Source: Thalassotalea marina
GTDB taxonomy: Bacteria > Pseudomonadota > Gammaproteobacteria > Enterobacterales > Alteromonadaceae
Assembly (NCBI RefSeq): GCF_014656435.1
Contig: NZ_BNCK01000008.1
Coordinates: forward strand, 62,001-126,000
Length of the DNA stretch: 64,000 nucleotides
Reading direction: 5' to 3'
In this document: positions 45,769 through 57,184 of the stretch, one piece after another
Layout of the letters: each line of letters opens with the position of its first letter
Position numbering within the stretch: position 1 is the stretch's first letter
Made by a program: the position numbers and the translations under genes
The notes under the pieces: model-generated
Databases searched by the model: none
The model's input: only the letters and a program-made list of their open reading frames with translations
Told to the model about the DNA's origin: nothing

Positions 45769-45996
45769 TTAATTATCGACACTAAACCGCCAAAAACTAA
45801 ATGTATTGGCGGTTAAGTTACCATTATCGTCAAAATGGCTACCCGTGATATAGCTGTAGGGAATGTAACAATCACCGTTATCGCCAAAGTCTGCTCCCAA
45901 AGAGTTTCTGCAAATAAATACTTCTTTTTTATGATCAAATCCTAAGCACAAAAATGAATGCCCGCCTAGGCGCCTTTCAAAAGGAGAGGTAAACAT
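45769..45996 (-). pseudogene. C-terminal remnant of a papain-like (C1) cysteine peptidase
   Basis: A 75-codon open frame reading GGHSFLCLGFDHKKEVFICR, then NSLGADFGDNGDCYIPYSYI. This is the C-terminal third of a C1 peptidase, with the catalytic His (GGHS) and Asn (RNSLG) but without the N-terminal part carrying the active-site Cys. Upstream on the reverse strand (46000-46130) no frame continues the protein, and no ribosome-binding site precedes the ATG. I read it as the leftover of a deleted gene. A functional short peptide is possible but less likely. Confidence 0.7.
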
Positions 45997-46129: not shown

Positions 46130-46927
46130 ATGCTCAAAAATAAGACTATTCCGTTTGATGGGGAAATTATAGATAACCTTTGTGGCTTATACTCTCATTT
46201 TGACAAATTACCTGAAACTGTGTTTTGCAATAATGAAGATGTGACTTATTGCAAAAGTAAATTACCCTTTCCTGCATTTAATTGTGTGATTAATACTAAC
46301 TTAACTTCTGAAAGTGCTAATTCTAAAGTTGAAGATATTATCGGATGTTTCAGTCAGTTAAACTTACCATTTTGTTGGAATGTTTCACGCTCTTCTTTAC
46401 CTGTAGGCTTAGATAACATACTAAAAAATAAAGGCTTTGTACTGGCTGATACACAGTCTGGAATGTCTATGAATATTTTAGGATATAGAAAAAGCGAGCG
46501 GCAAACTAATTTAGAAATTAATGTAGTAAGTGCTAGAGAAGAGCTTGACTTATGGGCGACTACATTTCAACAAGGATTTGAAATACCAGAGTTTGTGTCA
46601 CAAGCATTTTTAGAAATTTATCGGACTTTTGGCTTTGAACCGCACTCTAAAATAAGATGTTTTATTGGGTTTTACAATAATAAGCCTGTGTGTACCGCAG
46701 CATTATTTTTTACCCCAAAAAGTGCCGGCATTTACAGTATGTCTACGATTCCTGATTTTAGAAGGATGGGGTTTGGTCAAGCAATTGCTGAGTATATTTT
46801 GGAATATGCCGCTAAATTGGGCAATGATAAAGCCGTACTATTTGCCACTGATGCAGGGAAAAGGATTTATAAAAAGCTAGGTTTTGTAGAAAATGATGTA
46901 AGCGACATTTATTTATACAATAAATAA
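46130..46927 (+). CDS. GNAT family acetyltransferase, two-domain
   Basis: 265 residues. The C-terminal half is a GNAT domain with SMSTIPDFRRMGFGQAIAEY as the acetyl-CoA loop and FATDAGKRIYKKLGFVEND as the last motif. The N-terminal half (about 1-130) resembles the degenerate GNAT-like domain found in two-domain members. The gene is AT-rich and has several overlapping ATG codons and no strong ribosome-binding site; the ATG at 46130 is the first that keeps the frame open. Substrate unknown. Confidence 0.75.
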   Translation: MLKNKTIPFDGEIIDNLCGLYSHFDKLPETVFCNNEDVTYCKSKLPFPAFNCVINTNLTSESANSKVEDIIGCFSQLNLPFCWNVSRSSLPVGLDNILKNKGFVLADTQSGMSMNILGYRKSERQTNLEINVVSAREELDLWATTFQQGFEIPEFVSQAFLEIYRTFGFEPHSKIRCFIGFYNNKPVCTAALFFTPKSAGIYSMSTIPDFRRMGFGQAIAEYILEYAAKLGNDKAVLFATDAGKRIYKKLGFVENDVSDIYLYNK

Positions 46928-47011: not shown

Positions 47012-47677
47012 TTAGGGAGCTGCTCTACAAACATCTTCCATAACTTTTGCCACATACCTAAACGTTTGAAATGCACTCAATTCTATCGATTTATATAACT
47101 CTTCAGTTAAGGGTAAACTGTTAATAGTTCTTATAATGTCTTCTTTATGTTGTGCATCAATTACTGCATGTTCCATCACAGTACTGAAGGCTTCACGCGG
47201 TAAGCCTGAATTTGTGATTAATCCTTCAACATACTCGACGGTAGGGTGATAAACCTCTAAGCATCCTAAGTACCCCATAAAAGATACTGGGTGGTGGTGG
47301 TTTATCCAATAATATTGAGAACCTGTGAGGGCTGCAACACTTGGAGGTGGAACTCTAGAAAATATTTCTTCTCTCGAGATACCAAGCAATTTTAGATCAT
47401 TTACATACCACTCATCATGATCTGTTTCTTCAGCTATATGTTTTTTCATATAACTCGTTAAGATATGGTACAACTCGTCCTTAGGGAACTCCTCCATCTT
47501 AACCAACACCTGTTGCATTAGCGGTACTGTTGCTCTTGCTACCATTTGGTTTACCCAAATATGTTCTTTTACAACTTCAGGGTAGCAAGACAACTCATAA
47601 TACTTCTGGCCTACCGCTCGAGCGTTTAATGATAAAACGCTCATGCTTTTTGTTAGTCGCTCAAAATGAGTTGTCAT
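47012..47677 (-). CDS. Haem-oxygenase-like diiron enzyme (iron-containing redox enzyme family)
   Basis: 221 residues, all helical, of the TenA/PqqC-like fold. Residues positioned as metal ligands: Glu84 and His87 in KKHIAEETDHDEW, Glu141 in YLGCLEVYHP, and His170, Asp174 and His177 in MEHAVIDAQHKED. This E-xx-H ... E ... H-xxx-D-xx-H layout is that of haem-oxygenase-like diiron oxidases, which activate O2 to oxidise or cleave amino acids, fatty acids or peptides. It lies 15 bases downstream of a 59-codon peptide gene and is surely cotranscribed with it, so the peptide may be substrate or regulator. The exact reaction is unknown. The region is AT-rich and accessory in look. Confidence 0.82.
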   Translation of the reverse strand: MTTHFERLTKSMSVLSLNARAVGQKYYELSCYPEVVKEHIWVNQMVARATVPLMQQVLVKMEEFPKDELYHILTSYMKKHIAEETDHDEWYVNDLKLLGISREEIFSRVPPPSVAALTGSQYYWINHHHPVSFMGYLGCLEVYHPTVEYVEGLITNSGLPREAFSTVMEHAVIDAQHKEDIIRTINSLPLTEELYKSIELSAFQTFRYVAKVMEDVCRAAP

Positions 47678-47692
47678 AATCTTTGTTGCCCT

Positions 47693-47872
47693 CTAAAGCA
47701 TTATTCCTACACCAGGGCTGGTTTTTTGAATAGTTTTGTTAATTTTTTTAATCTGTTCTACTTCTTCTTTGGATAAGCTATCGATCGCTTTCAAATGCTC
47801 TTCTGTAAGCTCGTCTTTATTAATAATTCCTTCCGCATGAAGATGGTCACTGTGTGATTGTTCTTTTGTCAT
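47693..47872 (-). CDS. 59-residue peptide, possible precursor partner of the diiron enzyme
   Basis: Reverse-strand frame starting at the ATG at 47872 and ending with TAG at 47693-47695. The product has a His-rich start (MTKEQSHSDHLHAEG), a charged helical stretch (residues about 20-50, containing LTEEHLKAIDSLSKEEVEQI) and a short hydrophobic tail TSPGVGIML (51-59). It has no Cys. The split between an acidic helical leader-like part and a small Gly/Pro tail recalls RiPP precursors. The diiron-enzyme gene follows with a 15-base gap. A weak GGA lies eight bases before the ATG. It is transcribed away from the hybrid sensor gene. I recognise no family; the coding call rests on the gene context, spacing and amino-acid pattern. 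Confidence 0.65.
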   Translation of the reverse strand: MTKEQSHSDHLHAEGIINKDELTEEHLKAIDSLSKEEVEQIKKINKTIQKTSPGVGIML

Positions 47873-48084: not shown

Positions 48085-51000
48085 ATGCAAAATAATAATA
48101 AAAATTGGACCACAAATATTCGTCCTGGAATAAGCTTTCTAAATTCCATTATTTTGTCTTTTTTGTTTTGTTATTCGACTATGTCAATTGCACAAGAATA
48201 TGGTGAAATTCAAAAAATAGAACTTGTCTCAGATGCATACTCATTAGGTGATGGGTTATCTCAAGCTACAGCTGAAACATTACTACTTGACTCATATGGG
48301 TTTCTTTGGGTTGGTACTGCAGATGGACTTAATAGATTTAATGGATACGAGTTTGAAGTTTTTAGACCTTCATTGACTGAACCAGGCAGCATTAGTAGCG
48401 GCCAAGTTTTTTCAAGTTTACAAGATTCAAAAGGAAGGTTGTGGTTTGGGACAAATGGAGGAGGCGTAAACCTTTGGTTACCAAAAAGAGAATCTTTTCT
48501 CACAATTAGCTCAGAAAGTGAATTTAGCAATAGTGTTGTCGAACAAATTGTTGAAGACTCTAATGGAGATATTTGGATTGCAACAGACATTGGAGTTGCA
48601 CAGTTAAATCTGGAAAGAACAAGTGGTGATAATTTAGAGTTCCCAAACAATATAAGTATATCTTGGAAAAGTGACGACTTTAAAGCGAAGGTATTGGTTA
48701 CTGATATCAAAGACAACTTGTTATGGGTGGGGGCTGATAATGGTCAAGTGTTCTCAATTGATACTTCAAGCGCGTCGTATTCATTGACTAAAAAAGTGAG
48801 ACTTTCCTCTAGTATTACTGCAATTCTAAAAGTAAATGAACAAACATTATTAGTAGGTTCCAATAAAGGACTTTTTGATTATTCAATCGCCAATCAAACA
48901 ATCTCTAAAAATGTAAACTTTAAATCTTTTGATGATTTGAAAGTGACTAAACTTTTTAAGTTAAAGGGTGAAATATGGGTGGCATCCTATACTGGGATTT
49001 TTAAGTTTCATTATGGAAATGAAACTAAAAAACCCGTTGTCATATCTGATGATAACCTTAAATTAGGTGTGAATGTTCACGTCACAGATATAATTGAAGA
49101 CAACTACGGTGGAATTTATGTTGGCACTTTTACAAACGGCTTTTTAAGGCTTGATAGCAAAAAGTCACAATTTCAGACAACTAAAAAGGAGAATGGTGCT
49201 GAATCACTGAGTAGTAATTTAATTGTTGGTATTTACGAAAGTGAAAAAGGAAATTTGTTGTTAGGAACCTACGGTGCTGGGCTTAATGTAAAAAAAACAA
49301 ATCAAAAAAACTTTGAAACTTTTAAGAAAAATGTCAACGATGCTAACGAATTACAAAGTGACATCATTACTTCTATCGCTGAAGAAAATGAAAATGAGTT
49401 TTGGATCGGAACGATAGGTGGTGGATTTTCGAAATTCAGTTTAGAAACCAAGAATTTTAAAACATATAAAAAATCTGGAAATGATACAAATTCGCTAAGT
49501 CATGATAACGTATTATCCTTTTTAAATGACCAAGATATATTGTGGATAGGAACATGGGGGGGAGGATTAAATAAATTTAATAAAAAATCTGAGACATTTG
49601 AAGTTTACAAAAGCTCAAACAGCAATAATTCGTTGTCAGATGATAAAATATGGGCAATCGCAAAAGATACTGATGGTTACCTTTGGATCGGAACTGAGAC
49701 TGGAGGGCTAAATCGACTAAACCTGTCTACAGAAAACATTACTGTATACAAATCAGAGCCCAATATAGAAAATTCTATCTCGAGCAATTATGTTACCAGT
49801 ATTTTGGACAGTAATGACGGCTTTCTATGGATAGGAACAAATAATGGCCTCAATAGATTTGATAAATCGAATGAAACATTTAGCAGGTATACAATAAAGC
49901 AAGGGCTACCTAGCAATGTTATTCAGGGAATTGTACAAGATGAATCTAAAAATATTTGGCTCAGTACGATGAAAGGAATTTCTAAGTTAGATGTAAGTAA
50001 TGATACCTTTAAAAATTATGATAAAAATGATGGGTTGCAAGGAAATGAATTCAACTCATTAAGTTTTTATAAAAGTAAAAGAGGTGAAGTGTTTTTTGGT
50101 GGTATAGACGGATTCAACCGTTTTTATCCTAATAACATTAGACACGATCTAACTACTCCAAATGTTCTTCTAACTGACTTCTTAGTCCATAACGAACATG
50201 TTGATATTAAAAGTACAAAAGAAAAAAATCCAAACTCAAAATTCACCATTCCCGCCTCAATTAACGAATTAGATGAACTTGTTCTCACGTACGATGAAAA
50301 ATTAGTTTCATTTGAATTTGCTGCTTTGCATTTTGCTGAGCCCATGAATAACCAATACGCGTATATGCTTGAGGGTTTTGATGAAAAGTGGATCCACACT
50401 GATGCAAAAAATCGTCGAGCAACGTATACCAGCTTACCTTCTGGCAACTATGTTTTAAGAGTTAAAGCCAGTAATGGTGACGGTTATTGGAATGAACAAG
50501 GCAAGTCATTAAAAATTAAAGTGCTGCCACCTATGTGGAAAACTTGGTGGGCTTATACTTCTTATATTGCTATTTTTATTGGGATATTTGGTTTAATTTT
50601 ATATCGTCAAAACTACCAACGTTTGCGTGAACATGCCATAAATGTGCAGCTAACACGCGCAGATAAATTAAAAGATGAGTTTTTGGCCAATACTTCACAT
50701 GAGCTTAGAACGCCGCTTAATGGCATTATTGGGCTTGCTGAATCGTTAATTGATGGTGCCTCAGGCCAGCTACCTGATGCGGCAAATAAAAACCTTGCCA
50801 TGGTCGTTGCCAGCGGTAAGCGTTTGTCAAATTTAGTTAACGATATTCTCGATTTTTCAAAGCTTAAAAACCACAACCTTAAACTTAATCGCTCAGGGGT
50901 AGAACTTCACAGCTTAACCGATGTGGTGTTGACGGTTTCCACACCGCTAATTGGCGATAAAGATATCACACTCAAAAATACAGTCTCTGCAGAATTACCT

Positions 51001-54000
51001 TTGGTTAATGCCGATGAAAATCGTGTTGAGCAAATTTTGTATAACTTGATTGGTAATGCCATTAAGTTTACAGAATCAGGGCAAGTGAAAGTATCAGCAA
51101 AACATCTTGATGACGTGATCAGTATTTCTGTCGCTGATACTGGCATTGGTATTCCAAAAGATAAATTAGAAGATATTTTTAACTCATTTGAACAGCTTCA
51201 AGGCAATGTAAATCGAGAGCAAAGCGGTACGGGTTTAGGTCTTGCCGTTACCAAACAGTTGGTTGAACTTCACGGAGGTAAAATTTCTGTTGAGTCAACG
51301 TTAGGTAAAGGTAGTTGCTTTACTTTTACTTTACCAATTGAAGAAGATGCGATATCTGATGTCACCAATGTAGTTAAGTCGACAAACTTACAAAAACTAA
51401 ACCGCTTACAACATTTAGACAATGAAATTGAATATGTGAGTTTAGACGCACAAGAGTTGAGCCAACTTAGTGCTCGAGAACTTGATTATCAAAAATATCA
51501 TATCCTAGTGGTTGATGATGACGCTATTAACCGTCAGGTATTAGTAAATCATCTAGGCTTAAAAGGTTATCAACTAACAGAAGCGGCCAGTGGTAAACAA
51601 GCCTTGGCCTTAATCAATGGTGATGGCGATGCTGAAAGTGCAAAAGCTCGTCCGTTTGATTTAGTGCTACTTGATATTATGATGCCAAAAATGTCTGGCT
51701 ATGAAGTTTGTAAAAAAATTCGAGATATCTATTCACTGAATGAAATGCCGGTCATCTTCTTAACGGCTAAAAACCAAGTGATTGATTTAGTAGAAAGCTT
51801 CTCAGTAGGTGGCAATGACTATTTAAGTAAACCGATTTCAAAACATGAGTTGTTAACTCGCGTTGAAAACCACTTGAGTTTGCTTGATATAAATCGACAT
51901 CTGGAATTTCAAGTTGCTACACGTACAGAAGAACTTGAAAAAGCAACGCAGGCTAAAAGTGAATTTTTGGCTAAAATGAGCCATGAAATTCGCACGCCAA
52001 TGAACGCCATTATTGGTTTAAGTCATTTAGCATTAAAAACTCAACTGAATAATCACCAAAAAGATCTGATAGAAAAAACGCAAGACGCTTCGCAGGCGCT
52101 GCTTGGGTTGATCAATGATATTTTGGACTTCTCGAAAATTGAAGCGGGTAAGATGACCATTGAATCGGTGGTGATGAACATTGAAGCCCTGATCAAAAAA
52201 ACCGCCAATATTTGTGCGCTTAAAGCTCATAGTAAAGGGCTTGAACTCGTGGTGAAAGTTGCGCCAGATGTGCCAAAACAGATCAAATCTGACCCTGTCA
52301 GGCTACAACAAATTTTAGTTAACTTGGTAAGCAATGCTGTTAAGTTTACCGAACATGGTCATGTTTTAATTGACGTTAAAAAAGATCCTAGTAGAAAAAA
52401 CAGCCTAGCATTTTCAGTTACTGATACCGGCATTGGTTTAGAAGCCGGGGCAATGAATGGCTTGTTTAAGTCGTTTAGCCAGGCAGATAGTTCTATTACT
52501 CGTAAATTTGGTGGTACTGGCCTAGGCTTATCTATCTGTAAGCAGCTAACTACGCTTATGGGTGGTGATATATGGGTTGAAAGTGAGCTTGGCGAAGGCA
52601 GTACCTTTAGCTTTACCGTCGCTTATGATCACGTTGAAAATAGCGAGTTAGTCGCTAATCAGTCCATGATGATTGAAGGTCTTAGTGTATTAGTTGTTGA
52701 TGACAATGCCTTGTGTTTGAGTGTTCTCCAAGATTTACTTGAGCAATTTGGCTGTAAGATAACTACAACCAATAACGCGTATACCGCACTGGAACTGTTA
52801 GACAACGCCAAGTTAATTGAACAACCCTTTGATTTAGTGATCACCGACTGGCGGATGCCGAAAATGGATGGCATTGAGTTAGCACATAAAATTAGTGAAT
52901 TGGAAGACAAAAATAATATTCCAGCAGTACTGATGGTGACGGCATTTGATAAAAACGATGCCATGACCTTGTCACAATCAGCAGGGGTTGATGGTTTTCT
53001 TGAAAAGCCTGTTGATGCTTCCATGTTACTTGATGCCATGATGGGAGCACTGAAAATGGACGGTAAACACGTAACCTATTCATCACAACCTAAAGGTATA
53101 TTAGATTTATCTCACGCCAATATATTATTGGTTGAAGATAATGCGTTAAACCAACAAGTAGTGTTGGGCTTCTTAGAAGAAACTCGCGTTAATATTGATG
53201 TGGCAGAGAATGGTCAACAAGCACTAGATAAACTCGAAGACCATAGTTATGACATGGTATTTATGGATCTACAAATGCCAGTGATGGACGGTTTAACTGC
53301 AACGCGCGCGATTAGAGCCCACGAAAAATATGCCGATCTACCCATCATTGCGATGACAGCTCACGCTATGCAAGAAGAGTTAGACCGTTGTATTGAAGTG
53401 GGCATGAATGATTACTTCACTAAGCCAATTGATCCAAACGCGTTATTTACTTTGTTGTCGAAGTGGTTAAGTGCTCCTGTGTCAGCTATCAGAGAACCTC
53501 ATCCACAAACTCAATCAGTCGTCGTTAGTCCTGAAGAGCAAGTAAAAGGTGATTTACTCTCTGAAATCAAAAAGCTTAAATGTTTAGACGCCGAAGCCGC
53601 GATACAGGGTATGGGGGGAAGAACCGGTATTTTTGAAAAGCTAGTAATAGACTTTGCCAGTAACTACCATGCCACCGTTGACGAATTAGGCGATATATAC
53701 CGCGATAAAGACTACGATACGGCTTTTAGAATTGCACACTCGTTAAAATCGAATGCAAATTATATTGGTGCTTATCAACTAGCTAAACGTGCTCGACAAT
53801 TAGAAGCTCAGCTTAAAGAAGATCCAACGTCAGCTGATATTCTTGTTGCTGAAACCTGTATCGAATTGAATAACGTATTAATGGAACTTGCTGAGTTGCC
53901 ATTATCGTCGCCTAACGATACTGCCTTTAATGTAGAGCAAAGTGTTGAGGTTAATTCAGGGCAACTAAAGGTGTTGTTAAACTCAATTCATGGCTTAGTG

Positions 54001-54165
54001 GCAGAAGAAAACGCTGAGGCGGAAGACTTAATTCCTCGATTACTCCAACTAACAAAGGGGACTTCACACTATTTGTTGGCTAAACATATTGCTGACAATA
54101 TTGATGACATAGAATATGGCGAGGCTATTGATAAAATAGAAGAGCTTATAACAGCATTAGAATAA
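48085..54165 (+). CDS. Giant hybrid two-component sensor: propeller, two kinases, three receivers, HPt
   Basis: 2026 residues. Order: signal peptide/anchor (1-37); about a dozen periplasmic beta-propeller blades (about 45-690, with units such as [13 protein letters not shown] and [13 protein letters not shown]); Y_Y_Y domain (about 720-810); membrane helix (about 822-842); kinase 1 with His872 ([10 protein letters not shown]) and ATPase; receiver 1 with Asp1197; kinase 2 with His1300 ([10 protein letters not shown]) and ATPase; receiver 2 with Asp1588; receiver 3 with Asp1728; HPt with His1885 ([12 protein letters not shown]). All phospho-sites are intact. Two kinase modules in one chain are unusual. 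The propeller half looks richer in A+T than the transmitter half. A diguanylate-cyclase response regulator follows 22 bases downstream and is a likely phosphate acceptor. The propeller/Y_Y_Y class often senses glycans (known for Bacteroides); the ligand here is unknown. Confidence 0.93.
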
Positions 54166-54187: not shown

Positions 54188-55177
54188 GTGAATGAAAAAC
54201 TAAATCATGAAGCGACAGAAAGCTCCACAAAGCGCATGATAAAGAATATGGGTGATATAGAGCAAAAGATACTGATTGTTGACGATGAAAAAGCTAACCG
54301 TAAGGTATTAAAAGAGCTTTTACAGGATCAAGCAACCATCATCTTTGCAAAAAATGGCGAGCAGGCAATTGAATTGGCAAAGAAACATGTGCCAGATTTA
54401 ATGCTACTTGACGTGATCATGCCGGATAAATCTGGCTTTGAGGTTATCGAAGAGATTAAAAATGATCCGGTGACTATGGCAGTATCGGTTATTTTTATCA
54501 CAGGGCTTGCCAACAGTGACGACGAAGAGCGAGGCTTTGATTTGGGTGGCTGTGATTATATTTACAAACCATTTAAAGCCAATATCGTTATAGCGCGCGT
54601 GTTAATGCATTTAGAGCTAATTTATCAGCGAAAAATGTTAGATTCCATTGCTCATATTGATGCGCTTACTGGCATATCTAATCGACGAAAAATGGATGCG
54701 GTGTTGGTTGATGAAGTGGCGGCAAACAAACGAGATAAAAAGCAGTTATTGGTTGCCATTATTGATGTTGATTTTTTCAAACAATATAACGATAACTATG
54801 GTCACGGTGCTGGTGATATTGCGCTAAAAAAGGTTGCTGCAACCTTTAGAGAAGTACTGAAACGACCCCGTGATTTTGCCGCACGTTACGGCGGTGAAGA
54901 ATTTGTGATGATTTTACCCGACAGTAATTTAGATGGGGCAAAATTAGTGATGAATAACTTGATGCAAGCGTTAGCTGATAAAGCAATTATCCATGAGCAT
55001 TCGCAAGTTTCTCGTTATTTAACCATGAGCATTGGAGCTGTGTTAATTGATGGTGAGCAATCAACCTCACCTGAGCAAGTAATTGGCATCGCCGATAGGT
55101 TGTTGTATCAAGCCAAACGCCAAGGGCGTAATCAAATAGTGGTAGAAACCTTCTTTAAAACACAAGCTGCGGTTTAA
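54188..55177 (+). CDS. Response-regulator diguanylate cyclase
   Basis: 329 residues; makes cyclic di-GMP when its receiver is phosphorylated. GTG start at 54188. A 25-residue lead precedes the receiver (about 26-140), with LIVDDE and phosphoacceptor Asp75 (LMLLDVIMPDKSG) and lysine in YIYKPFK. The cyclase domain (about 155-320) has DALTGISNRRKM, the active GGEEF (residues 235-239) and an intact RxxD inhibitory site (Arg226-Asp229), so product inhibition is expected. It follows the hybrid sensor by 22 bases and is its probable output: a sensed ligand would change c-di-GMP. Confidence 0.93.
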   Translation: MNEKLNHEATESSTKRMIKNMGDIEQKILIVDDEKANRKVLKELLQDQATIIFAKNGEQAIELAKKHVPDLMLLDVIMPDKSGFEVIEEIKNDPVTMAVSVIFITGLANSDDEERGFDLGGCDYIYKPFKANIVIARVLMHLELIYQRKMLDSIAHIDALTGISNRRKMDAVLVDEVAANKRDKKQLLVAIIDVDFFKQYNDNYGHGAGDIALKKVAATFREVLKRPRDFAARYGGEEFVMILPDSNLDGAKLVMNNLMQALADKAIIHEHSQVSRYLTMSIGAVLIDGEQSTSPEQVIGIADRLLYQAKRQGRNQIVVETFFKTQAAV

Positions 55178-55219: not shown

Positions 55220-57184
55220 TTACTCTACACGTTGTTTTTCAACTCGACTTTCTGCAATTTTAGCCAAGTTAATGCTACCACCTGGTGATTCGTTGTTATC
55301 AAGCATGGTAGGAGATTCACCGACAAAAGCTAACGCCATTAAACATTTACTTAAATTGATCATCAGTTTGTTATCAATTAAGTCGGCGATGGCTTGATCA
55401 ATCTCAGCTAGCTCTTCATTAGGTTGTAGCTCTAGCAGTTTTTTGATCAAACGCTCTTTCGGAATAGGCTCTGACGCTAAACGATAAAGCTGTGCTTTTA
55501 TACCGGTTAAAATGTGAGTGAAGTTTGTCGCCACTTCACGTGTATCCATTATGATAATACTTTCGCCTTTATCGACCATATAACACATTGGAATGGCTCC
55601 GCTTTGCCATTGCTCACTCCAATTGTCTAATAAAGCTTGAACTTGACCTAGGGCTTTGCTTTGCGGTTTAAAGGTGAAATTTAACGTATAAATGCCCTGA
55701 GTTTTATCTGAGGCTTGATTAAAGAAATAAGCAATATTTGATAAAGCTTCACCTTGTAACGGGTAAATATATTGATAACTTTTGGTTGGCTCAAGCGTGA
55801 GGTTATATTGTTCCGGATTATTAAAATACGGACTAAAACGGTGATAACAAATTTTTGCCATTTGATCAAAAGGAGGATGTAAGTGAGTTACCATAGGTAG
55901 CCATTCGAGCATCTCTTCATACCAGCTCTCTTGTTCAAAAGGCGCTTCACACAATAAGTTCCATGTAACGCGAATACCGTAACTTCTACACCACTTCAAT
56001 GCCGCAATATTTTGAATTGCGGTTGTACCTTTTTTAATCGCCTTTAAAAAGTCGTCATGTAAGCCTTCAATACCTGGTTGTATCCACTTGATACCCGCTT
56101 TAGCCATGGTTTCAACATGATGCTTTTTCAAGTTAGCTTTTGTTTCATAAAACAAGTTGTATTCTTTTACTTTTGAAAGCTCAGGTAAAACTGTTTTCAT
56201 GTATTCAACAGGCAAAATGTTGTCTACCACCAAAAACTTATTGGTGTTGTATTTGCTGGATAAGGTTTCAAATTCATTAATAGCAACATCAGCAGGTTTA
56301 GAACGGTGGGTCATAGTGCCGCCGTTTAGTCCGCAAAAGGTACAGTGCTGCTTTGCTCCCCACCAACACCCACGAGAAGTTTCGGCCAATAAGCCCGGCG
56401 AGATAAACTCTTCAAGTTGCAGTTCTTTTAACGTGTCAAAATAACTGTCGTAAATTGGCATTCCAACAACAGACATATCACTTATGTAGGCACGCGGTGG
56501 CTTTGATTGACAACCTAAATCAGCAGTAAGGTTTTTATGTTTTTGCGAAATAAACCCGTTAGGTAAGTTGCGGTAGTCTATATGTTCGCCTTTCATTAGC
56601 TTATCAATAAAAGGGCCTATAACATCGTCACATTCGCCAGAAAATACATAATCTACCCAGTGAAAGTTTTCACTAATGGTTTGCCCCATAATGCCTTCGC
56701 AGTTTGCGCCTCCAAGCATAGTAATAATGCTTGGTTCTAATGCTTTTATGCGGCGCATAAGTGCCAGTGAGGCACAATTTTGTTGGAAGGTAGAAGTGCA
56801 ACCAAGAATTTTAGGTTTAAGTTTTAAAATATCTTGGGCAATTGCTTCAATAAAAGCTTCGGCTTTGTTTCTAATATCTAAAAGCTGAGCAATTTTTTCG
56901 TCATCAAGATCGGTAAATAAGTTAAAAAAGCCTTCGTCATTTAAATTGGCATCTGGAAAGGCTGCACGAGAAAATGTCCACTCACCAATGAGGTAGTCAT
57001 TAAAAGAACTGTCTATTAGATCATATTCGGCTAAGCCAATTATTGATGCAAACTTTACGTTGCCGTAGATTGCTTCGACAGAATATCCGTATTTAGTTAT
57101 GTAAGTTTCAAGTACTCCAAGGGAAATAGACGGAGTTGTAATTGAAGAGTAAGGTAAACTTACGAGACAAACATCCTTTATCAT
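55220..57184 (-). CDS. Cobalamin-binding radical SAM enzyme, RiPP-maturation type (rSAM_ocin_1-like)
   Basis: 654 residues. N-terminal B12-binding-like domain (about 1-210, with LGCTSTFQQNCASLALMRRI and TMLGGANCEG), then the radical SAM core with ETSRGCWWGAKQHCTFCGLN: Cys273, Cys281 and Cys284 in a C-x7-C-x2-C arrangement. This pattern and the WWG triplet are typical of the RiPP maturation radical SAM C-methyltransferase family. A C-terminal region (about 480-654) is probably for peptide recognition. Reaction expected: methylation or rearrangement of a ribosomal peptide using SAM. I found no precursor gene in the 198 bases upstream or the 42 downstream, so it is an orphan here. The 59-residue peptide 7.3 kb away is a conceivable but unproven substrate. 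Confidence 0.85.
   Translation of the reverse strand: MIKDVCLVSLPYSSITTPSISLGVLETYITKYGYSVEAIYGNVKFASIIGLAEYDLIDSSFNDYLIGEWTFSRAAFPDANLNDEGFFNLFTDLDDEKIAQLLDIRNKAEAFIEAIAQDILKLKPKILGCTSTFQQNCASLALMRRIKALEPSIITMLGGANCEGIMGQTISENFHWVDYVFSGECDDVIGPFIDKLMKGEHIDYRNLPNGFISQKHKNLTADLGCQSKPPRAYISDMSVVGMPIYDSYFDTLKELQLEEFISPGLLAETSRGCWWGAKQHCTFCGLNGGTMTHRSKPADVAINEFETLSSKYNTNKFLVVDNILPVEYMKTVLPELSKVKEYNLFYETKANLKKHHVETMAKAGIKWIQPGIEGLHDDFLKAIKKGTTAIQNIAALKWCRSYGIRVTWNLLCEAPFEQESWYEEMLEWLPMVTHLHPPFDQMAKICYHRFSPYFNNPEQYNLTLEPTKSYQYIYPLQGEALSNIAYFFNQASDKTQGIYTLNFTFKPQSKALGQVQALLDNWSEQWQSGAIPMCYMVDKGESIIIMDTREVATNFTHILTGIKAQLYRLASEPIPKERLIKKLLELQPNEELAEIDQAIADLIDNKLMINLSKCLMALAFVGESPTMLDNNESPGGSINLAKIAESRVEKQRVE

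Follow-up and report, generated by a model that had tools for sequence, protein, structure and literature searches.

The PQQ pathway is built from the parts PqqA, PqqE, PqqC and PqqF, with a crosslinked Glu/Tyr pair in the peptide PqqA, and polytheonamide-type proteusins combine an NHLP-like leader with radical SAM methyltransferases. The C1A proteases PoyH and ThoK act as leader proteases (accessible part of PMC10885120). For the haem-oxygenase-like dimetal oxidases (HDOs), a 2026 review puts the functionally validated members at about a dozen and defines the site by a set of three His and three carboxylate ligands; in its accessible portions, modification of ribosomal peptides by HDOs is cited only through the 2019 thiovarsolin study (PMC13108848). 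The substrates of described HDOs are fatty acids, amino acids, a tripeptide or the HDO itself (accessible portions of PMC13108848 and PMC13185094), and in AetD, UndA, HrmI, PolF and MboA the substrate carboxylate is reported to be a ligand at Fe1, that of MboA coming from a tripeptide (PMC13185094, same portion). In the thiovarsolin pathway, a varO mutant lost two compounds that are 2 Da lighter and made only two heavier ones, which is why VarO was taken to be a dehydrogenase (PMC6511847, in the part available). A haem oxygenase-like gene is also present in thioamide clusters of several Sinorhizobium species (PMC8120280, in the part available).

We analysed a window of 64,000 nucleotides from Thalassotalea marina in which an earlier sequence-only reading had paired a small peptide gene with a diiron-type enzyme gene. 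That reading had proposed the peptide as the substrate of the enzyme, in a new class resembling the ribosomally made, modified peptides (RiPPs), or as its adaptor. Our analysis indicates that the locus probably belongs to a RiPP pathway consisting of a leader peptide, an HDO, a radical SAM enzyme and a protease. The features of the window that bear on this proposal are the following.

47693..47872, minus strand: precursor-like peptide gene, 59 aa, ATG start (conservation, selection, AlphaFold2 model)
47872-47729, minus strand: predicted helical leader, peptide residues ~1-48 (AlphaFold2 model)
Residues ~49-59 of the 59-aa peptide, minus strand: putative core or tail, ending SPGVGIML (low-confidence C-terminal part of the model)
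47012..47677, minus strand: HDO, 221 aa (Pfam match, metal-site alignment, AlphaFold2 model)
46130..46927, plus strand: GNAT acetyltransferase, between the HDO gene and the protease remnant (domain match)
45769..45996, minus strand: papain-like (C1) protease gene, C-terminal remnant of 75 aa, His/Asn half kept, catalytic Cys half lost
48085..54165, plus strand: hybrid sensor kinase, 2026 aa, divergent neighbour (Reg_prop propeller, Y_Y_Y)
54188..55177, plus strand: response regulator-GGDEF protein, a PleD-like diguanylate cyclase, next to the kinase (domain matches)
55220..57184, minus strand: radical SAM enzyme, TIGR03975 (RiPP maturation radical SAM C-methyltransferase; 660.1 bits, cut-off 281.85)

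The coordinates bear out the original observation that the peptide frame ends 15 bases before the diiron-type gene, the 221-aa HDO ORF (47012-47677, minus strand). Because many chance ORFs reach such a size, the length of a 59-aa frame is insufficient evidence for a gene. The peptide is present in five of five genomes of the genus, the window's included, at E<=0.01. An order-level search of 295 genomes with the peptide as a single-sequence query returned two matches, one of them the window's own, and the sole other match of a DNA search was L002, 29 bases long. Among 12 compared pairs, pN was 0.04-0.27 against a pS of 0.17-0.95, and dN/dS was 0.09-0.22 in the seven pairs with finite dS. The peptide pN/pS pooled over all pairs was 0.47 (against 0.40 in the HDO), as high as this because synonymous sites are saturated. 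These substitution patterns point to purifying selection on the peptide. Selection, together with conservation in all five genus genomes and in 15 of 17 family genomes that match the HDO strongly, upholds the small frame as a gene and rules out its reading as a chance ORF.

Nine columns are invariant among 17 aligned peptides. Eight lie within the N-terminal 37 residues and the ninth is a Gly, fourth from the C-terminus; the final residue is I, L, V or F in all 17, giving a tail end of the form Gly-x-x-hydrophobic, and the tail residues apart from this Gly are variable. The SPGVG tail singled out by the sequence-only reading is present in the window peptide but in only three of the five genus members, and the feature that holds family-wide is the Gly at -4 with the final I/L/V/F. 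The AlphaFold2 model of the peptide is helical in the leader-like part, as had been suggested, with three helices (residues 7-13, 24-31 and 35-50) followed by a tail of low confidence (last block pLDDT 50) without a helix. Taken together, alignment and model suggest a leader followed by a short core, the architecture of RiPP precursors.

Profiles of known precursor families match this peptide below their cut-offs. Against NF045560 (aroma-sacti cluster domain), the window peptide scores 27.3 bits, under the curated cut-off of 30 bits, and all seven type-A peptides tested (of 17) gave matches that are likewise sub-cut-off (E 5.7e-7 to 3.7e-3, 17.5-29.7 bits). Run over 100 genomes of the phylum, the same profile found the window genome and one weak match inside a 404-aa frame of another, neither over the cut-off. 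Against NF045559 (StsA-related sactipeptide), the window peptide scores 12.6 bits, with a cut-off of 75.

The HDO matches Pfam Haem_oxygenas_2 (40.1 bits, cut-off 28.9). The metal site E84-xx-H87 ... E141 ... H170-xxx-D174-xx-H177 recurs unchanged throughout the 19 aligned HDO sequences, and its exact spacing (E-xx-H, E, H-xxx-D-xx-H) is what we take to be the HDO ligand motif. The intact site that had been claimed for the enzyme is therefore borne out, and, judged by this alignment, it is real, with all ligand residues in place. The AlphaFold2 model (pLDDT 95.1) resembles UndA 6p5q_B (Foldseek E 1.6e-6, TMq 0.75) and 3dde_A (VIA-align Z 23.7, 2.5 A over 215 residues); because haem oxygenases and TenA also score a Z of about 20, function is not derivable from the fold alone. 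By sequence, the best solved match is again 3dde, a structural-genomics entry from Shewanella, followed weakly by AetD and MboA. The window enzyme has two features of the HDO superfamily, namely the fold of haem oxygenase and the three His and three carboxylate ligands. Ten HDO positions, some of them adjoining metal ligands, covary with Phe-ending peptides, a pattern that is confounded with clade and to which we give no weight.

We surveyed the pairing of the two genes in a family sample of 395 genomes. The HDO is matched strongly, above 100 bits, in 17 of them, and the genome next in rank reaches 66 bits. In 15 of the 17, the gene immediately 5' of the HDO is the peptide gene; in the other two, an NHLP-like peptide occupies that position. 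The earlier reading had expected homologues of the peptide beside homologues of the enzyme, with a conserved tail and purifying selection; the survey agrees on each point (15/17 genomes, tail 17/17, pN<pS), and cases of the enzyme kept with the peptide absent were looked for in this HDO clade and none was found. The arrangement recurred at every one of ten loci from a scan of named genomes (Thalassotalea, Colwellia, Pseudocolwellia, a MAG labelled Flavobacteriaceae); nine of these loci belong to the same 17 genomes, so the scan adds names and one further case and no independent support. Loci L017 and L019 each carry two peptide and HDO pairs. The peptide stop and the HDO start overlap by one base in nine of 18 type-A pairs, with gaps of 0-15 bases in five and 79-92 in four, spacings that depend on the start codons picked by script. 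By eye, 16 of 18 type-A rows show AAGG or AGGA ahead of the peptide start, the exceptions being the window (TGGA) and G357, where the likely start differs from the start shown. Peptide and HDO distances correlate (Mantel r 0.54, 0/5000 permutations as high) over 17 pairs, a set from which G002, whose peptide is identical to that of G001, and two type-B pairs were dropped.

The MAG labelled Flavobacteriaceae contributes L016, a contig of 5.1 kb that carries the genes for peptide, HDO, protease and radical SAM enzyme. Its HDO, protease and radical SAM proteins are 66-72% like their Colwellia and Thalassotalea counterparts, and the contig is probably misbinned.

The pairing is confined to one group of HDOs. 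A BLAST screen with the window peptide, which a very divergent peptide could escape, found no peptide at any of 13 distant-HDO loci examined (of 133 genomes with weaker matches only). It found none, with the type-B peptide as a further query, at L057 and L062, two distant HDO copies in genomes that also have the cluster. These loci rule out the proposition that every HDO has such a peptide. In a tree of 31 rows, the two HDO groups separate with support of 96/96, with the Sinorhizobium enzyme on a long branch of unsure placement, and the distant matches form another subfamily. At several distant loci, the HDO abuts its upstream neighbour gene; the three neighbours scanned comprise two AMP-binding genes and one short-chain dehydrogenase. 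The window genome itself has a second, distant HDO (L062:6556-9476; G000:C1, about 316.5-319.5 kb), located after an AMP-binding gene and before an SDR-like gene, and similar AMP-binding/HDO/SDR-like sets recur at distant HDO loci of the family.

An alternative is that the peptide serves the HDO as an adaptor, as an inhibitor subunit or as the carrier of a small substrate, and does not mature into a product. The HDO is the one partner that accompanies the peptide in every genome examined, and the concentration of eight of nine invariant columns in the helical N-terminal 37 residues is as in a binding partner. Against this explanation stands the C-terminus, where the Gly at -4 and the hydrophobic end are conserved in 17 of 17 peptides despite a low-confidence, helix-free model. 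It also sits poorly with a leader that resembles RiPP leader models and the peptide of a YcaO-TfuA locus, and with companions such as a radical SAM enzyme of a RiPP family and a papain-like protease, which the adaptor alternative of the sequence-only reading explains less well. We consider it improbable, and the RiPP pathway remains our preferred reading.

The first of these companions, the TIGR03975 radical SAM gene, lies about 7.3 kb from the peptide and HDO pair inside the same window. The sequence-only reading had overlooked it, as it had the protease remnant and the VarO precedent. The motif C-x7-C-x2-C is present in 17 of 17 aligned radical SAM sequences, and a PDB sequence search with the window protein gave no match at 1e-3. 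The gene adjoins the pair or its protease at L016, L017, L018, L019, L020, L021, L023, L059 and L060. In the window's genus, it is found beyond the kinase and GGDEF genes, further off in G002; in G151, it is about 77 kb away from the pair. At the G002 locus, two extra genes (1021 and 405 aa; L093:10997-15386), likely an insertion, stand between the GGDEF and radical SAM genes.

We looked for an alternative precursor of the radical SAM enzyme among 118 small ORFs around it at 17 loci and found no better candidate; the conserved ones were the type-A peptide, its type-B counterpart and a few short frames common to two or three ORFs. Near the radical SAM gene, a short stretch at L016:4975-5101 and L023:7272-7454 is conserved in more than one frame, which suggests that it is a non-coding element under conservation, perhaps in front of the large gene that comes next.

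Papain-like proteases are the other recurrent companion. The window fragment (45769-45996), with the catalytic Cys half lost, is a dead remnant. An intact homologue is encoded elsewhere in the window genome (G000:C1:423743-424549), 44% identical to the G151 protease, and similar intact copies are present in all four other genus genomes (genus range 44-46% identity to the G151 protease); in this genus, the protease is located outside the cluster. A C1 protease follows the HDO gene at L016, L017 (second pair), L018, L019, L020, L022/L013, L023, L058 and L060; at L021 and L059, it is found on the far side of the radical SAM gene. The catalytic residues Q69, C75, H263 and N281 (L013 numbering) are present in 14 of 14 full-length proteases aligned, a set that left out the second L019 copy. 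That copy (L019:10705-11714), by the second peptide and HDO pair, falls into two frames of 274 and 70 aa and is either broken or affected by a sequencing error. No signal peptide is evident by eye on the protease, which is probably cytoplasmic.

Both companions track the HDO across the 395 family genomes. With a threshold of E<=1e-40, the radical SAM enzyme occurs in 16 genomes, all among the 17 with a strong HDO match; the protease, at >200 bits, occurs in 15, again all among these 17. The radical SAM match is missing only in G421, which has HDO, peptide and protease, and the protease is missing in G316 and G352, the two type-B genomes; the gene set is thus not invariant. Weaker protease matches of 50-83 bits occur in six further genomes without HDO, G403 among them. 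Hypergeometric values for co-occurrence with the HDO are 1.4e-27 for the radical SAM enzyme and 2.6e-25 for the protease, both too small because related genomes overstate the number of independent events; at the level of 52 genera, the radical SAM value is 7.5e-9.

The two type-B genomes (genus g118) have an 86-aa NHLP-like peptide ahead of the HDO, which in G316 matches NF038399 with an E of 2.3e-6, below the cut-off. On one strand in each case, the gene order is peptide-HDO-radical SAM in G316 and radical SAM-peptide-HDO in G352. A plasmid search with the HDO returned 15 records, only four of which reached at least 80% query coverage, all Sinorhizobium. Megaplasmids of Sinorhizobium fredii carry an HDO gene whose product has 32% identity to the window enzyme (E 4e-23); it runs divergently from a gene for a 67-aa peptide, which is followed by YcaO and TfuA genes. 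The leader of this peptide aligns with the profile of window-type peptides (hhalign probability 86%, E 5e-6), the best match of all ORFs at three loci and above 2000 of 2000 shuffles; the peptide itself gave no match to NF045560 at E 0.1. The leader that window-type peptides have in common with this YcaO-TfuA locus suggests that the HDO clade may be a transferable tailoring module. On the Methylibium petroleiphilum plasmid RPME01 (L106:4785-7337), an HDO-like gene stands in a run with two others, one of the enoyl-CoA hydratase family and one annotated as ferritin.

Upstream of the peptide gene, the hybrid kinase has, besides its propeller-type sensor, two HisKA stretches, two HATPase stretches, three receivers and an Hpt domain. 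In the type-A loci compared, the kinase gene adjoins the first peptide gene in divergent orientation, and the GGDEF gene comes after it wherever the contig is long enough; G382 and G358 give no information on this link, as their contigs end before the kinase's upstream side. The kinase is a candidate regulator or receptor, with a putative role for the GGDEF protein alongside it, and the pair may regulate or sense the pathway product. A further possibility, compatible with the RiPP pathway, is that the product is a peptide signal read by the divergent kinase and relayed to c-di-GMP through the GGDEF protein, as the conserved gene order and the propeller sensor would suit. We regard this as possible but unlikely, given that the kinase persists without the peptide in G403, which has only a C-terminal protease fragment beside it and has lost the rest of the cluster, and in G348, and that no secretion gene was identified. 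The kinase without the cluster in these two genomes rules out an obligate link. Another RiPP-type run adjoins the degraded cluster of G403 (L099:1948-4423), with genes for a Cys-containing DUF2282 small protein, an enzyme of the MbnB/TglH/ChrH (MNIO) family and DoxX. The GNAT gene of the window has no match in this position at the loci compared and is probably an insertion.

The earlier proposal that the peptide is a substrate, in a RiPP-like setting, is well supported, at the level of sequence, by the pairing, the leader-like fold, the co-occurrence of radical SAM enzyme and protease and the pair at the YcaO-TfuA locus. In the pathway that we propose, the 59-aa gene product would be the RiPP precursor, with a helical leader (about 48 residues) through which the tailoring enzymes recognise it and a core consisting of the short C-terminal tail that ends Gly-x-x-(Ile/Leu/Val/Phe). 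The HDO, with a diiron (or Fe/Mn) site and O2, would oxidise the core by desaturation, hydroxylation or oxidative decarboxylation; its most likely target is the free C-terminal hydrophobic residue or the position beside it. The TIGR03975 enzyme would add a further change, perhaps C-methylation, and the papain-like protease, probably in the cytoplasm, would cut off the leader. We infer the order of these steps, the site and type of oxidation, the regulation by the kinase and the peptide's role as substrate of all three enzymes.

We tentatively place the action of the HDO at the C-terminal residue of the peptide, because the Gly-x-x-hydrophobic end is fixed in a tail without predicted structure and because five HDOs are reported to bind the substrate carboxylate at Fe1 (PMC13185094, in the portion available). 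The conservation of the tail end might alternatively stem from recognition by the protease or an exporter. The fully specified scheme, a new RiPP class in which the HDO grips the free C-terminal carboxylate of the precursor and converts the terminal Ile/Leu/Val/Phe, for instance through oxidative decarboxylation or desaturation, the radical SAM enzyme makes a second change, the protease frees a short, modified peptide and the kinase/GGDEF pair senses the signal, is rather doubtful in all its parts at once. In a broader form, one HDO clade and one leader type would constitute a mobile module, joined to a radical SAM enzyme in marine Gammaproteobacteria and to YcaO-TfuA in rhizobia.

The PQQ pathway has the same kinds of part as the window cluster (small peptide, radical SAM enzyme, haem-oxygenase-fold oxidase, peptidase) and raises the possibility that a small cofactor is made from the peptide scaffold by excision of a modified amino acid, as PqqA, PqqE, PqqC and PqqF do for PQQ. 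Unlike PqqA, the window peptide contains no Tyr, and so no Glu/Tyr pair; there is no Tyr column across the 17 aligned peptides and none is conserved in the tails. The tail residues except Gly vary, which would be unusual for a fixed cofactor, and the distribution is patchy, at 17 of 395 family genomes. We therefore consider a cofactor highly improbable as the product.

Among the matches listed from the open-licence PMC literature, there was no title on a RiPP with HDO, radical SAM enzyme and papain-like protease, and a leader family of the window type was not found together with an HDO. A haem-oxygenase-like protein in a RiPP cluster (VarO), TIGR03975 as a RiPP family and C1A leader proteases are already known; the combination of parts, and the window-type leader family with an HDO, we have not found described. 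The earlier reading recognised no described pathway with this pair, but VarO already provides a haem-oxygenase-like RiPP precedent. Such a cluster, in which a defined leader peptide goes together with an intact HDO, a TIGR03975 enzyme and a protease, offers a testable substrate for two little-studied enzyme families, and makes the substrate of an uncharacterised HDO clade directly testable.

The window HDO has the fold and ligand set of the characterised HDOs (UndA, AetD, MboA, CADD, BesC, HrmI and PolF) and of 3dde. Most of the 52-position domain model of NF045560 is covered by the window-type leader, below the cut-offs of both the aroma-sacti and the StsA-related (NF045559) models; a thioether to a tail cysteine is impossible in window-type peptides because none of the 17 aligned tails contains Cys. 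Polytheonamide-type proteusins have in common with the window pathway a RiPP leader, a radical SAM enzyme and a C1A leader protease (PoyH), but the window pathway has a short leader and core and an HDO in addition. Thiovarsolin (VarA, the YcaO protein VarY, the TfuA protein VarT and VarO) is like the window cluster in having a haem-oxygenase-like protein in a RiPP cluster, the likeness to VarO being one of description. Its core is repeated and contains Arg, whereas the window-type core is an aliphatic- or Phe-ending tail, and the HDO's partners in the window are instead a TIGR03975 radical SAM enzyme and a papain-like protease.
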